This document shows, piece by piece, positions 24,796-30,918 of a stretch of DNA of 38,175 nucleotides. Source of the stretch: Acidobacteriota bacterium. Lineage in GTDB: Bacteria > Acidobacteriota > Aminicenantia > S016-38. How positions within the stretch are numbered: the first letter of the stretch is position 1; each line of letters starts with the position of its first letter. Made by a program: the position numbers and the translations under genes. Where the stretch lies: assembly GCA_015486055.1 (NCBI GenBank), contig WFSJ01000005.1, forward strand, positions 1 through 38,175, in the 5' to 3' direction. The notes beneath the pieces are model-generated. The model worked only from the letters and a program-made list of their open reading frames with translations. It was not told the origin of the DNA and did not search any database.

Positions 24796-25759
24796 TTCCC
24801 TTACTGAATCTTATAAAAACAGAATAATTCATCTTCCTGAGAAAGCTTGCAAAGGCCTCTACCTGCTTTAAGGAAGGTCTCTTCCACGGAAGGAACTCGT
24901 TCTCATTGTAAGGAATAAGGTTAATCTTGACCCTGAGCCCTCTGAGAAGTTTCCCAAGCTTTTCGGCATCTTTCAAGGAGTCGTTTATCCTATCCATCAA
25001 TACATATTCTATTGTTACTCTTTCCCTCCGTTTTATAGGAAGCTCCTTTAGTTTCTTTATTATCAAGCTTATGGGATATTTCCTGTTAATTGGCATGAAC
25101 TTTGTCCTATCTTTTTCCTCGGGGAAATTAAGTGAAATAGCAATTTTTATATTTGGAAATTTCTTTAGTATCCTTTCTAAACCATCTATAAGGCAAACTG
25201 TTGAGAGGGTTATCCTCTTGAGAGAGATATTCATCCATTTATTTATCATCTCAATTGACCTTTCAACCTCATTTATATTATCAAGGGGCTCTCCCATTCC
25301 CATAAAGACTATATTCACCTTCCCCTCCGCTCGCTCAAGGAGGGATAAAACCTGACCGGTTATCTCATAAAATTTCAGGTTTCTTGCAAGTCCTGATTGG
25401 GCAGTTGCACAAAATTTACAACCCATTCTGCACCCAACTTGAGAAGAAATGCAAAATGTCATGTGTTTCTTTTCTGGAATAAGCACAGATTCCACCTTGT
25501 TTCTATCTTCAAGCTCAAATAAATACTTCGTAGTTCCATCAGGAGCCGAAAACTTTTCTATTATTCTTGGATAACTAATTTTGAAATTTTTCCAAAGAAA
25601 GGATCGAAATCCCTTTGGGAGATCCGTCATTTCATCAAAATTTTTCACCCTTTTAAGATAAAGCCATCTAAAAAGATTGTCTGCCTGAAATTCTGGATAT
25701 CCAAGCCCCTTCACTACAGACTTTGCTTCCCGATAGTTGAGGGAAAATATATTCCTCAT
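24749..25759 (-). CDS. rlmN: 23S rRNA/tRNA adenine-C2 methyltransferase
   Basis: This radical SAM enzyme methylates C2 of A2503 in 23S rRNA and A37 in some tRNAs. In 336 residues it shows FCISSQVGC (first catalytic cysteine), the radical SAM triad CRMGCKFC, GMGEPLDN, and the C-terminal AACGQLRA carrying the methyl-transfer cysteine. SLNFPEEKDRTKFMPINRKYP is also typical. The start forms an ATGA overlap with folC; the end overlaps uvrA by 47 bases. Confidence 0.96.
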   Translation of the reverse strand: MRNIFSLNYREAKSVVKGLGYPEFQADNLFRWLYLKRVKNFDEMTDLPKGFRSFLWKNFKISYPRIIEKFSAPDGTTKYLFELEDRNKVESVLIPEKKHMTFCISSQVGCRMGCKFCATAQSGLARNLKFYEITGQVLSLLERAEGKVNIVFMGMGEPLDNINEVERSIEMINKWMNISLKRITLSTVCLIDGLERILKKFPNIKIAISLNFPEEKDRTKFMPINRKYPISLIIKKLKELPIKRRERVTIEYVLMDRINDSLKDAEKLGKLLRGLRVKINLIPYNENEFLPWKRPSLKQVEAFASFLRKMNYSVFIRFSKGNEIKAACGQLRAKRG

Positions 25760-27021
25760 ATCTTTTTTAAAAGACCCTCCTTCAAAAGCTCTGCTCTGAT
25801 TCTCCCAATAAGATAGAGGGAACCTCCCGCAAAAATCTTACCACCAGATAGTTCTCTTGCGAGATTCAGAGCATCTACCGGGTCCCTTCTCACATGGATA
25901 TCTGCGTATCTTGAGGCAAGAGGAATTAATTGCTCTGCCGGCATTTTTCTCCTTGACTCTATCTCAGAAAGGATAATCTTCCTGAAAAATGGAAATATGT
26001 TTTTACCCATGCATTTATAATCCTTATCCCTTAGCAGCCCGAAGACCAAAATATCCCAGGGACCCGAGACTTCAAGATAATCCTTTATAACATGGGAAGC
26101 ATTACAGTTGTGAACCCCATCTATTGTTATGTTTCCTGCGCTTTCAAGTCTTCCTGGCCAGAAAGCAGAGGTTATACCCTTTAGAATGTCTTCCTTTGTT
26201 ATTTTATATCCTTCCTCCCTGAGCTCCTCAGTAGTAGCAACTGCAACGGCTGCGTTTCTTCCTTGGTGACTTCCCAATAGCGATGGCTTCAGAATGTATT
26301 CTTCCTTTCCCCTGTAAAGAAATTCCCTCAGCGGGTTTACTATCCTGAAATTTTTATCCTTAAATACTAATCTCACCTTTGCTCCTGTTTCTCTCGCCCT
26401 TTTTATGAAAATTTCATTTGTTCTCTTCTGTCGAGTTCCTATCACGGTTCTTCCGCCCTTTATAACGAAAGATTTTTCCTTCGCTATTTCCCTTATTGTT
26501 TCCCCCAAGTGCTTGGTGTGGTCAAGAGCTATCTCTGTAAGAACGCTCACCTGTGCCTCTGCAATGTTTGTTGCATCAAGCCTTCCTCCCATTCCGACCT
26601 CAAATATTCCAAAATCCATCCCCTCCTCTCTAAAGACAAGCATTGCTGTTGCAGTCAGGGTTTCAAAGAATGTAATTGGATGAGGAAACTGTCTGTTTAC
26701 CTTTTCAGAAGCTTTTGCTACCTGACCTATGTAATAGCCGAATTTTTCCCTTGCGATTGGCTGGCCATTAATTCTTATTCTCTCCTCAGGAAAGACAAGA
26801 TGCGGAGAAGAATTGAAGCCCACCTTGTATTTTCTTGAAAGTATAGAGGAAAGGAAAGCCCCAACAGAGCCTTTACCGTTTGTGCCTGCTATTATTATGT
26901 AATGATAGTCCTTCCAAGGATTCCCAAGTCTCTCTGCAAGATTCTTTACCCTCTCAAGCCCCAGCTTTACCCTAAACTCCTGAAGATATTTTAAATACCT
27001 CAGTGCCTCTGAATATTTCAA
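25756..27021 (-). CDS. folC: Folylpolyglutamate/dihydrofolate synthase
   Basis: Mur-ligase-fold enzyme that adds glutamates to folates and, in many bacteria, also makes dihydrofolate. The 421-residue protein has the P-loop IIAGTNGKGSVGAFL, SSPHLVFPEERIRING, FEVGMGGRLDATNI, LTEIALDHTKHLG, GSHQGRNAAVA and DGVHNC. The start is TTG at 27021, overlapping the accD stop as TTGA. The accD-folC order is conserved in many bacteria, including E. coli. Confidence 0.95.
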   Translation of the reverse strand: MKYSEALRYLKYLQEFRVKLGLERVKNLAERLGNPWKDYHYIIIAGTNGKGSVGAFLSSILSRKYKVGFNSSPHLVFPEERIRINGQPIAREKFGYYIGQVAKASEKVNRQFPHPITFFETLTATAMLVFREEGMDFGIFEVGMGGRLDATNIAEAQVSVLTEIALDHTKHLGETIREIAKEKSFVIKGGRTVIGTRQKRTNEIFIKRARETGAKVRLVFKDKNFRIVNPLREFLYRGKEEYILKPSLLGSHQGRNAAVAVATTEELREEGYKITKEDILKGITSAFWPGRLESAGNITIDGVHNCNASHVIKDYLEVSGPWDILVFGLLRDKDYKCMGKNIFPFFRKIILSEIESRRKMPAEQLIPLASRYADIHVRRDPVDALNLARELSGGKIFAGGSLYLIGRIRAELLKEGLLKKI

Positions 27022-27803
27022 TTGGGGAATCGATTGAGAAAAAGCCTGATGAGTCTTACTATAACCTCCTTAAGCTCTGTCCTTTTTACAACGGCATCGA
27101 GCATACCATGCTCAAGGAGAAACTCTGATCTCTGAAATCCCTCTGGAAGTTTCTGCCTTATGGTTTGCTCTATCACCCTGGGTCCTGCAAAACCTATAAG
27201 GGCCTGGGGTTCTGCAATATTGGCGTCTCCCAACATAGCATAGCTAGCAGTTACCCCACCAGTTGTTGGGTCAGTTAGAACGGAAATGTATGGAATCCCT
27301 TCCTTATCTAGCTGAGAAAGAGCTGCTGATATTTTTGCCATTTGCATTAGGGAATATATCCCTTCCATCATTCTGGCTCCACCTGAGGCTGAAACTATAA
27401 CAAGAGGCAATCTTTCCTGAAGGGAAACCTCAATGGCTCTTGTTATCTTCTCCCCGACAACTGAGCCCATGGAACCTCCTATGAAGTAGTATTCCATAAC
27501 CGCCATTACTATTGGGATTCCGTCCATTTTCCCCTTGACAATTATCACTGCTTCTTTCTCTCCTGTTTTTTCCATGCTCTCTTTCAATCTCTGAGAATAA
27601 GGTTTCCTATCAACGAAGCCCAAGGGGTCCTTAGAATTTATCTTCGAAAAAATTTCTTCATACTTGCCTTCATCGAGCAGTAGTTCAAGACGTTTTCTTG
27701 CAGTAAGTCTGAAATGAAAACCACAGTGGGGACAAACATAGAGATTATCTATTACATCCTGTTTATATACTATCCTATTGCATGCATTACATTTTGTCCA
27801 CAT
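27018..27803 (-). CDS. accD: Acetyl-CoA carboxylase carboxyltransferase subunit beta
   Basis: This subunit, with AccA, moves the carboxyl group from biotin to acetyl-CoA in the first step of fatty-acid synthesis. The 261-residue protein starts with the zinc ribbon CNAC...CPHC and continues into the crotonase-type core: MEYYFIGGSMGSVVGEKI, SASGGARMMEGIYSLMQMAK, DPTTGGVTASYAMLGD, and AEPQALIGFAGPRVIEQTI. No accA or biotin-carrier gene is in the window. The ATG has no clear Shine-Dalgarno. It follows a small coiled-coil gene by 35 bases. Confidence 0.96.
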   Translation of the reverse strand: MWTKCNACNRIVYKQDVIDNLYVCPHCGFHFRLTARKRLELLLDEGKYEEIFSKINSKDPLGFVDRKPYSQRLKESMEKTGEKEAVIIVKGKMDGIPIVMAVMEYYFIGGSMGSVVGEKITRAIEVSLQERLPLVIVSASGGARMMEGIYSLMQMAKISAALSQLDKEGIPYISVLTDPTTGGVTASYAMLGDANIAEPQALIGFAGPRVIEQTIRQKLPEGFQRSEFLLEHGMLDAVVKRTELKEVIVRLIRLFLNRFPN

Positions 27804-27838: not shown

Positions 27839-28063
27839 TTACTCCTTTGCTTCCTCCTCTTCAAATTCATTTGGAACATTAAGAATGGAAGCAGCTCCAT
27901 CATAAATCTGCCTTACAGCTTCCTTCTGCTTTTGAAGGTCAGCCATTCTCTTTTTAAACTCGGATACTTCCCTTTCCATATCTTTGTCAATCCTACCTAT
28001 CTCTTTTTTTGCACTTTCAAGGGTCTGTTTGTAAAAATTTTCCTGGTCCTTAGGTAATGCCAT
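27839..28063 (-). CDS. Small predicted coiled-coil protein
   Basis: I do not recognise a family. The 74-residue protein is nearly all charged helix. About residues 6-50 have heptad-like spacing (KQTLESAKKEIGRIDKDMER), followed by a less charged AVRQIYDGAASILNVP and an acidic end (EFEEEEAKE). No signal peptide or membrane span is visible. The start is well supported by GGAGG seven bases upstream of the ATG. It lies 14 bases after the kinase fusion gene and 35 before accD, so it is certainly co-transcribed with both. It may be an accessory of either. Confidence 0.75.
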   Translation of the reverse strand: MALPKDQENFYKQTLESAKKEIGRIDKDMEREVSEFKKRMADLQKQKEAVRQIYDGAASILNVPNEFEEEEAKE

Positions 28064-28077
28064 TTTTTACCTCCAAT

Positions 28078-30918
28078 TTAAAATTTTATTGTTATAACCA
28101 TCCATGTCCTGACTTTTTTCCCTGATTTTATAGGAGATGTAAACTTCCATTTTTTAACTGCTGATATAGCAGATTCATCGTATCTTGGATGAAGGCTCTT
28201 AATAACCTTTACCTGTTCAACATCCCCGTATGGGGAGATAAGCACACTTAAGGTTACCACTCCCGATTTTCTCAGGAAAGAAGGCTTCCTTGGAGCTACT
28301 TTATTTATGGCTTGAGGCTTGCGGTCAAGAAATGGAAAAGCTACAAGAGAACCTTCCTTAATTTGCGGCTTTTCAAATTTAGCAGATGGCACTTTCTCCT
28401 TGGGTTCTTTCTTAATAATTTCTTTCTTTGGTTTTTTCTCTATTGGTTTTTCTGCAGGTTTAGGTTTTGGTATTTCCTCCTTTGCCTGGGTTTCGGGCTT
28501 AATTACCTGTGTTCCTTTCTCTTCCTTTACCTGAACTTTCTTAGGCTGAGGCCTGCGTTTTATCTTCCTTTTCTCCGGCTTCTGAACGACTTTCTTAACA
28601 GGGGGAGTCACAGCCACAGAAGGAACAGGATTTTTCTTGACAGCTTCTTCGGAGATCTGGGAGGTTCCCTTTTCTACATTGGTCTTCAAGGGCTGGACTT
28701 CTTCCTGCGTCTGAGCAGGAGGATTCTCTTTTGCTGTGTTTTCAATAGGGGCTGTTTCATGTCGCATAACCAGTGCCTTTCCTCTCATCCTCGTGAAATA
28801 ATAGGCTCCTCCACCGCCAATGAGGAGAATTATTACTACAAAAATGAACACCACGGAAGGAAAACCTTTTGCCTTTCTTTCTTCTATTTTTCTGGCCTTA
28901 ACTGGCTTTGCCTTCTCCTTGGCTGGCTCAAAACCGAAGCTCCTTACAGGAACTTTTGCCTTGGCCTCCTCTGACTTCCTCACTTCCTCAGGCTTTTCCA
29001 ACTCTTTAACTACAGGAGCTTCCTTCGGCTTCTCCTTTATAATCTCAACTTCTATCCCAGTAGATTTTATCTCATCCTGAAAAAGGGAATACATAAAAAC
29101 TGCCATATCCCTTGCATTGGGAATTGAACCTATGTAAGAGAGAAGGAATCTCTCTATATCATTCCTCATTTCTGATGCATGCTGATATCTTTTATCAGGA
29201 TTCAGCTGCATTGCCTTAAGAATTATCCTCTCTGCCTCCTCAGGAATCCCAGGCCTTGCTTGGCTTGGAGGAATAAACCTGCAATTCTTCACTCTATCAA
29301 GCACCTGAGCCTCTGAATCCCCTATAAAGGCTTTAATTCCTGTGAGAATTTCATAATAAATACTGCCAAGTGAGAAAATATCTGAACGGTAATCAATCTT
29401 GGAACCTTTAGCCTGTTCAGGCGACATATAGAGAAATTTCCCCTTTAATGAACCCGCCACTGTATGATGAGCTTTTATTGAGGCTTTAGCAACCCCAAAA
29501 TCAACTAACTTTATCTCTCCTTCATAAGAAATTAATATATTTTGAGGGCTAACATCTCTGTGAACTATGTTGAGAGGTTTCCCATTTTCCCCGACTTTCC
29601 TGTGAGCATAATCAAGAGCCTCGCACATTTTCATAATTATGTAAGAGGAAAGGTCTATTGGGACAAATTTCTTACCTCTTTTCCTCAGTTTCTTCAAAAT
29701 AGTTCTTAAATCCTTACCAAGGATGTATTCCATAGCAATAAAATATGCCCCATCTATCTTTCCAAGGTCGTATATCTGAGCTATGTTCGGATGAGTAAGT
29801 TTGGAGGCTACCTTTGCTTCATCTATAAACATTGTTATAAATTCCTCATCCTCTGAAAGATGGGGAAGAATTTTCTTCAAGGCTACAACCTTCTCAAAAC
29901 CTTCCACTCCTTTCTTCTTCGCCTTGTAAATCTCAGCCATACCGCCTGTGCTTATTTTTTCAAGAAGGATATACTCTCCGAGAACCTGTTTCTCTTCAAA
30001 GGGTCCAAAAGGTTCCTCTGGAATTTTCTCCTCTTCTTCAAGCTCAGGAACTTCCTTAATTTTTTCTTTTTTCCTTTCTTCCACCTCTTTCTTGATTTTT
30101 CCCTTTTCTTCTTCTACTTTCTCCAAAACTTCTTCCTTTTTCTCCTTTTCCTCAGATTTCGGTTTCTCTTTTGTGCTTATCCCAACCCCGGATAGCGTTT
30201 CCTCAAGAATTTTATCTATAAAACCTTCTTCGGACTTTGCTTTCTTCTTTCTTTTCGCAGGAGGAGCAACTTCCTCTAAAATCTCTTCAGGTGATTTGAC
30301 CTTTTCCTTCTTTTGCTCTTTTTTCGGTTCCTCCCAAGGTTTTTCTTCTCTCTCTTCCAAGGGTGCCTCTTTGGGTTTTTCCTCCTCCACTTCTTTTAGA
30401 AGGTCGCCAAAAATCTCCTCGGTAGTCAAAAGTCCCTTTTCCTGAGCAGGAGGAGTAGATGCCGTTGCCTCCTCTAACTTCTTAACCTGGGTTTTCTCCT
30501 TAAGGTTAAGAGTGGTCATTTTCACTGTCGTAAGAGGAGCTGATTTTGCAGGAATATAATTTTTAAGTGAATTTATAAACTCATCTTCCTTAATAGGAAG
30601 TTCAAAGAAATGATCAGCACCATAAACATGAAGAGCTTCATATCTGTACCTTGCTCCCTTGTAAATTGATGATATCAATATAACAGGAAGCTTTGAAAAA
30701 CCAAGCTCTATTCTTAATTTCCTTGTAAGTTCAAATCCATTTATTCCCGAAAGCATAGCAGAAGCAATAACAAGAGAATATCTTTCTTCTTTTAACTTGG
30801 TAAAAGCCTCGGCCCCCGTATGAACTTCCTCAACTTCAACATTAAAGTCACTTAAAATTTCTCTAAGCTGCCTCAGGTTTTTCTCATCATAATCAACAAT
30901 CAAAACCTTTTTTCTCAT
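28078..30918 (-). CDS. Pseudo-receiver / Ser-Thr protein kinase / TonB C-terminal fusion
   Basis: This 946-residue fusion starts at ATG 30918, where AGGAGG sits six bases upstream; the longer TTG frame to 30963 would overlap the promoter. Residues 1-120 are a response-regulator receiver whose phosphoacceptor Asp is Ser53 (VIASAML) and whose conserved Lys is Leu (ELPIKE). A Glu/Lys-rich linker follows. Residues 313-595 are a kinase with a Gly-loop (STGGMAEIY), Lys348, HRD (453-455) and DFG (473-475), all intact. One membrane span lies near 687-708. A periplasmic Pro/Lys/Glu-rich region follows, and the last 80 residues resemble the TonB C-terminal domain (VVTLSVLISPYGDVEQVKVIKS). It heads the operon with accD and folC. 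Confidence 0.85.
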   Translation of the reverse strand: MRKKVLIVDYDEKNLRQLREILSDFNVEVEEVHTGAEAFTKLKEERYSLVIASAMLSGINGFELTRKLRIELGFSKLPVILISSIYKGARYRYEALHVYGADHFFELPIKEDEFINSLKNYIPAKSAPLTTVKMTTLNLKEKTQVKKLEEATASTPPAQEKGLLTTEEIFGDLLKEVEEEKPKEAPLEEREEKPWEEPKKEQKKEKVKSPEEILEEVAPPAKRKKKAKSEEGFIDKILEETLSGVGISTKEKPKSEEKEKKEEVLEKVEEEKGKIKKEVEERKKEKIKEVPELEEEEKIPEEPFGPFEEKQVLGEYILLEKISTGGMAEIYKAKKKGVEGFEKVVALKKILPHLSEDEEFITMFIDEAKVASKLTHPNIAQIYDLGKIDGAYFIAMEYILGKDLRTILKKLRKRGKKFVPIDLSSYIIMKMCEALDYAHRKVGENGKPLNIVHRDVSPQNILISYEGEIKLVDFGVAKASIKAHHTVAGSLKGKFLYMSPEQAKGSKIDYRSDIFSLGSIYYEILTGIKAFIGDSEAQVLDRVKNCRFIPPSQARPGIPEEAERIILKAMQLNPDKRYQHASEMRNDIERFLLSYIGSIPNARDMAVFMYSLFQDEIKSTGIEVEIIKEKPKEAPVVKELEKPEEVRKSEEAKAKVPVRSFGFEPAKEKAKPVKARKIEERKAKGFPSVVFIFVVIILLIGGGGAYYFTRMRGKALVMRHETAPIENTAKENPPAQTQEEVQPLKTNVEKGTSQISEEAVKKNPVPSVAVTPPVKKVVQKPEKRKIKRRPQPKKVQVKEEKGTQVIKPETQAKEEIPKPKPAEKPIEKKPKKEIIKKEPKEKVPSAKFEKPQIKEGSLVAFPFLDRKPQAINKVAPRKPSFLRKSGVVTLSVLISPYGDVEQVKVIKSLHPRYDESAISAVKKWKFTSPIKSGKKVRTWMVITIKF

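Follow-up and report, generated by a model that had tools for sequence, protein, structure and literature searches.

A pseudo-receiver Ser/Thr kinase with a TonB C-terminal domain, and its small coiled-coil neighbour, recur across the Acidobacteriota

Introduction

One protein chain of 946 amino acids, encoded on the minus strand at 28078..30918, joins a pseudo-receiver, a Ser/Thr kinase domain, a single membrane span and a TonB C-terminal domain (TonB_C). It was found in a 38,175-nucleotide stretch of DNA from an Acidobacteriota bacterium of the class Aminicenantia (assembly GCA_015486055.1, contig WFSJ01000005.1, positions 1 to 38,175), here called the window. Judged by its residues, the receiver is dead and the kinase looks alive. 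On the sequence comparisons presented below, the group of orthologous kinases spans the phylum and is not the product of a chance fusion. The call is close, but we lean towards reading the protein as a receptor-type Ser/Thr kinase, anchored in the membrane, whose TonB_C domain senses the periplasm or the outer membrane. No description of a kinase with such an architecture was found in the open-access literature, the part searched.

Here, we discuss the modular domain structure of the protein, its conservation and its neighbouring genes, and weigh the sensing-kinase reading against its rivals.

Domain structure of the kinase protein

The first-pass annotation of this DNA had placed the gene correctly at 28078-30918 without stating its strand. 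The plus strand of this interval contains many stops, and the minus strand is open for all 946 codons with none inside the frame. The start is an ATG at 30918, with the sequence AGGAGG a few bases 5′ of it. All feature coordinates given below for the window refer likewise to the minus strand.

That annotation had also proposed four modules in one chain with both ends open to profile searches and structure prediction, and these analyses bear it out: Pfam finds the receiver, the kinase and TonB_C, each match lying above its curated cut-off, and hydropathy finds one span. The pseudo-receiver comprises residues 5–118 (30565..30906; Response_reg, E 5e-14), an assignment backed by alignment and by an AlphaFold model built from the family alignment (mean pLDDT 94.8), for which receiver structures rank first in Foldseek (E 1.5e-09). 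The kinase domain follows at residues 317–580 (29179..29970; Pkinase, E 1.4e-38), and a scan of the organism's own genome places it at the same position (C5:29179-29970). The single membrane span lies at about residues 686–704 (28807..28863; hydropathy 2.46) and contains neither a His nor an SxxxH motif. Beyond it, a Lys/Glu/Pro-rich linker of about 155 residues (705–860; 28339..28806), predicted from the topology to be periplasmic, leads to the C-terminal unit, which consists of the pre-motif IKEGSLVAFPFLDRKP and TonB_C and takes up residues 861–946 and the stop codon (28078..28338). With its one strong hydrophobic span, the protein retains the topology predicted earlier, with the kinase in the cytosol and the TonB-like end in the periplasm.

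The TonB_C domain itself is assigned by Pfam to residues 883–946 (E 3.6e-13). When the last 107 residues are compared by sequence with the PDB, the best matches are TonB domains (TonB2 2k9k, E 1.5e-4), and a C-terminal AlphaFold model from the family alignment (mean pLDDT 89.9) places TonB C-terminal domains first in Foldseek (6i97, E 8.5e-05, TM 0.79 to the target). Pfam, PDB sequence comparison and Foldseek all give TonB, and the possibility that the C-terminus might have some other fold did not materialise.

The kinase motifs described earlier as intact are all present: the catalytic Lys (K348), the HRD Asp (D455), the Asn (N460) and the DFG Asp (D473). Together with the Pkinase match they identify, at the level of sequence, a Hanks-type Ser/Thr kinase, and all four residues are identical in 23/23 full-length orthologues from the class.

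The layout resembles that of kinases of the PknB/PASTA type, with a cytosolic Ser/Thr kinase, a single span and an extracytoplasmic domain. It differs in that the ectodomain is TonB_C without PASTA repeats and that a pseudo-receiver precedes the kinase at the N-terminus. Assignment as a PASTA kinase was rejected, as the NCBIfam model PknB_PASTA scores 286.5 bits against a cut-off of 450 bits and Pfam finds no PASTA domain; beyond the kinase, the alignment to that model follows the low-complexity linker.

Conservation and modular variation across the phylum

Kinase orthologues, defined by a score of over 300 bits, are present in 29 of the 60 relatives sampled. A maximum-likelihood kinase-domain tree unites the genome's other kinases in one clade with full support (100/100), and neither the class orthologues nor the relatives from across the phylum fall inside it; deeper forks within the orthologue family are partly unresolved. 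A single-protein search of genome contigs gave as its sole match one Planctomycetota kinase, with 30% identity.

A survey of related genomes, as the first-pass annotation had suggested, shows that this architecture, unchanged or modified, occurs across the phylum. Beyond the class, 36 phylum loci were located by searching for the coiled-coil family described below and were opened. Most have a large gene of the kinase/TonB_C group directly upstream of the coiled-coil gene, and receiver, kinase, span and TonB_C occur together in about 16 of the 36. The remaining architectures vary in a modular fashion. In one phylum family (f31; L171, L174 and L186), orthologous kinases terminate in a tail-anchor span and lack a periplasmic domain, and the coiled-coil gene adjoins; one further family has a kinase without span and without TonB_C and keeps the coiled coil; a third has span and TonB_C only. 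Within the window's class, several families carry receiver, span and TonB_C with no kinase, and the coiled-coil gene then follows. Seven such kinase-less loci (L103, L104, L105, L106, L108, L109 and L110, from families f4, f7, f8 and f10) have a receiver in which Glu replaces Asp, followed by a coiled-coil gene of 79–86 amino acids.

These kinase-less families, in which pseudo-receiver, span, TonB_C and coiled-coil gene persist, speak for the main rival to the sensing-kinase reading, namely a trans-envelope scaffold or tether with the receiver platform and the coiled coil inside and TonB_C outside, in which the kinase would be a non-essential regulator acting on the machine by phosphorylation. 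The layout would be like that of GltG and GltJ. GltG, of the Myxococcus Agl-Glt gliding machine, joins a cytosolic FHA domain and TonB_C in one chain (PMC3169522), and GltG and GltJ have been described as TolA/TonB-like modular proteins (PMC5349195). The window protein shares with them the single span and the periplasmic TonB_C, whereas Pfam finds no FHA domain at its other end. No kinase or receiver has been reported for GltG, and the gene context is different, the neighbours of the kinase gene, as named from sequence, being accD, folC, rlmN, uvrA and a hemolysin-like gene. However, the kinase-bearing form is more widespread across the phylum than the kinase-less one and its catalytic residues do not decay; the invariance of these residues in kinase-bearing members argues against the kinase being incidental. 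Moreover, there are lineages in which TonB_C, and in some cases the span as well, is absent while kinase and coiled coil persist. A scaffold of this kind is, in our judgement, unlikely. Lineages with receiver and TonB_C but no kinase, or with kinase but no TonB_C, do indicate that the link from kinase to outer membrane is not indispensable.

Elsewhere, an ordinary Ser/Thr kinase with span and TonB_C, lacking both a receiver and a coiled-coil neighbour, is encoded at L107:5071-7278 (G045:C1), and may possibly represent a separate origin of the kinase–TonB_C fusion.

The coiled-coil neighbour, linker motifs and gene context

A gene for a coiled-coil protein of 74 amino acids (27839..28063) lies 14 nt downstream of the kinase gene; its product matches no Pfam family above that family's cut-off. 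A coiled-coil gene of 70–86 amino acids directly follows the kinase gene in 28/29 class loci, and the 29th locus is cut off by a contig end before this point. Two of these 28 loci have wider gaps, of 611 and 760 nt, as the frame of the kinase gene is broken there ahead of TonB_C. The coiled-coil profile matches 46/60 relatives, usually once per genome, and the family was found by profile search in 107/297 phylum genomes, usually beside a gene of the kinase/TonB_C type. The coiled-coil gene persists in loci that lack the kinase or the TonB tail and is therefore the most constant element of the arrangement, although the phylum loci were themselves located by a search for it. In family f7 (L143, L145), extra copies follow an Era-like GTPase gene and not a gene with TonB_C.

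Two types of linker motif recur, [S/T]-x-[D/E]-[I/L]-F-G-D and D-x-D-x-L-L-x-x-T-L-S-G-L, and are putative docking sites. In the window protein, one motif is TEEIFGDLLKEV (residues 166–177; 30388..30423), which is recurrent across the phylum and has a rate of 0.14% in shuffled sequences. The second, IDKILEETLSGVG, lies within 30160..30240 (coordinates approximate) and was found by eye, the regular expression having missed this copy; in relatives it recurs as DVDKLLEDTLSGL, KKFEDTLSGLGL and similar sequences. The strict expressions match a minority of linkers, against rates of 0.1–0.4% in shuffled sequences, and variants are visible by eye in most of the linkers read.

The next genes in the run, both identified from sequence, are accD-like (acetyl-CoA carboxylase beta subunit; 27018..27803) and folC-like (folylpolyglutamate synthase; 25756..27021). 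They are found in the same order in several phylum members, a recurrence that hints weakly at a link to lipid synthesis. At L051:14325-15191 and other f5 loci, a conserved membrane protein with a zinc-ribbon-like CxxC...CxxC arrangement is encoded after folC in the same run.

A pseudokinase paralogue with the same tail

The source genome encodes five TonB_C domains. A protein of 603 amino acids (L069:8428-10239; G000:C42) combines a kinase fold, a span and TonB_C, and shares the pre-motif xGSVVPxxxLD with the active kinase protein. Its catalytic Lys, HRD Asp and DFG Asp are all absent, and the HRD motif is dead in all 29 aligned members of this pseudokinase–TonB_C group, orthologues of which occur in about 33/60 relatives.

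The pseudokinase is present in 27/29 genomes that carry the active kinase protein. One exception is a genome that is 83% complete; the other, G008, has instead a receiver–pseudokinase protein without TonB_C (L112:120-1874, contig C12), in which a receiver-like segment and a pseudokinase are joined with neither span nor TonB_C and which represents the only family lacking the TonB_C pseudokinase. This co-occurrence tracks family lines and could therefore reflect shared ancestry only. The 29 pseudokinase proteins contain no match to either linker-motif expression, and no coiled-coil gene lies near the pseudokinase gene of the window genome, the one pseudokinase locus checked. Directly upstream of that gene are a gene for an FHA-GAF-adenylate/guanylate cyclase (L069:6128-8382) and then a TPR gene; a phosphothreonine reader is encoded beside a kinase-like protein.

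TonB_C as probe or as motor-driven arm

The C-terminal domains of TonB and TolA bind their partners by beta-strand addition, and the SHLS motif in the N-terminal membrane helix is a motor-binding feature of TonB (PMC12204202). The source genome encodes TonB-ExbB-ExbD after secD/secF as well as a separate Tol set, with three ExbD genes and nine Plug-domain receptors in all, and its three stand-alone TonB/TolA-like proteins carry SxxxH in their membrane helix. There are thus partners available for a TonB_C domain, and the canonical role is already taken.

These receptors and ExbD genes, together with a true TonB_C fold, would suit an energised TonB-type transducer that serves certain TonB-dependent receptors, with the cytosolic kinase domain of the same chain as its switch. 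Like TonB and TolA, the window protein does end in a TonB_C fold after a long periplasmic linker. In contrast to them, it has its span in mid-chain, at residue 686, a large cytosolic kinase, no N-terminal SHLS helix and no adjoining ExbB or ExbD genes. A motif scan found neither SxxxH nor any His in the spans of the window protein and the pseudokinase and no span His in nearly all relatives, and the few His residues found lie at span edges; the genome's own TonB/TolA-like helices, on the other hand, have the motif. A span of this kind makes coupling to ExbBD unlikely. The motor helix of TonB is usually N-terminal, whereas about 685 residues precede the span here. By the features tested, the protein is TonB-like only at its end, and an energised transducer is improbable.

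The absence of SxxxH from both spans in a genome with ordinary TonB/Exb, Tol and TonB-dependent receptors speaks for passive sensing in the periplasm or at the outer membrane and against an energised arm for transport. The earlier proposal that the protein may sense the state of the outer membrane or of TonB-dependent transport is a reasonable inference, but a limited one, given the missing motor motif and the dispensable link between kinase and outer membrane.

The pseudo-receiver

Pseudo-receivers (PsRs) are folds recognised by PF00072 that lack key catalytic residues (PMC12632262), and the N-terminal domain fits this definition in its Pfam match, its fold and its residues. In the alignment, Ser53 replaces the phosphoacceptor Asp and Leu107 the Lys, both of which a canonical receiver would have; the acidic D9/D11 and S84 are present. 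The loss of Asp stated in the first-pass annotation extends to 23/23 full-length class orthologues, in which position 53 is Ser in 6, Ala in 13 and Glu in 4, and none of these relatives retains it. The stated loss of Lys is correct for the window protein but is not a general trait: it affects 6/23 class orthologues (Leu or Phe, in the window's own family), and the other 17 keep the Lys.

Elsewhere in the phylum, two aligned members have Asp at position 53. One of them (L181) is degenerate in its other active-site residues, and the other (L168) has an apparently complete receiver and lacks TonB_C. In another family (L174, L186), Asp is visible by eye in degenerate N-terminal receiver-like segments. 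Loss of the phosphoacceptor is therefore the rule, and not absolute.

The Asp of those two members, the Ser at position 53 in the window's family and the presence of a Ser/Thr kinase in the same chain might suggest a receiver that still serves as an input, with the Asp loss incidental, for example through phosphorylation of Ser53 by the kinase in cis. Position 53, however, is Ala or Glu in 17/23 class orthologues and Arg or Asn in some other members. Ser53 as an alternative phosphosite was rejected because the position is not kept phosphorylatable across relatives, and we regard a working receiver as very improbable. That separate genes were merely joined in assembly or annotation, as might happen in a draft genome of 60 contigs, can be dismissed, since the identical architecture recurs in dozens of independent assemblies and the frame is open here without internal stops.

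Known pseudo-receivers such as FrzS and the ALR/PsR group share with this domain a receiver fold without phosphoacceptor, and FrzS is among the Foldseek matches of the receiver model. The domain differs from them in being fused to what appears to be a live Ser/Thr kinase. A review of PsRs does not mention TonB; its kinase parallel is the fungal Rim15p, whose Ascomycota PsR generally has Glu for Asp (PMC12632262).

A proposed model for signalling across the envelope

In the sensing-kinase reading, the pseudo-receiver and the kinase would lie on one side of the single span, and the charged, proline-containing linker and TonB_C on the other, as sequence and models predict. TonB_C may hold its partner, located in the periplasm or outer membrane, through beta-strand addition of a peptide segment, which is how TonB and TolA bind, but it would serve as a passive probe and not be driven by a motor. 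Binding of the partner, or its loss, would then alter the clustering or spacing of the chains and so change kinase activity. The 74-aa coiled-coil protein could dock on a platform made up of the two linker motifs and the pseudo-receiver, which is locked because Asp phosphorylation is impossible; its role is probably to set oligomerisation or to present a substrate. The pseudokinase, a separate gene product with a span and TonB_C tail of the same kind, is a likely second subunit or antagonist.

This scheme would not apply throughout the phylum. Some lineages retain kinase and coiled coil but have no TonB_C tail, so that sensing in the periplasm is not a general property, and where the kinase is missing and receiver, span and TonB_C stay, the signalling output must differ. 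In the window's own family, moreover, the 'YP' region of TonB_C is altered, so that binding of a TonB box is not assured.

Taken as a whole, these proteins could form a phylum-wide trans-envelope system, in which an active kinase and a pseudokinase, each with a single span and a non-energised TonB_C probe, are organised by the pseudo-receiver and the 74-aa coiled coil and link the state of the outer membrane or periplasm to phosphorylation in the cytosol. The recurrence of accD nearby makes lipid synthesis a possible target. This fuller picture is tentative and, in all its parts together, rather doubtful.

The design and its tiny neighbour gene recur phylum-wide, and probably represent an undescribed way of relaying the state of the outer envelope to the cell interior. 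The family also fills a gap in work on pseudo-receivers, with a large set of natural variants, nearly all without the Asp, and a conserved coiled-coil candidate partner. TonB_C is usually seen as the end of a motor-driven arm; a conserved kinase that carries it without the motor motif suggests a role as a sensor as well, which would give Gram-negative bacteria a kinase reaching directly from the cytosol to the outer membrane.
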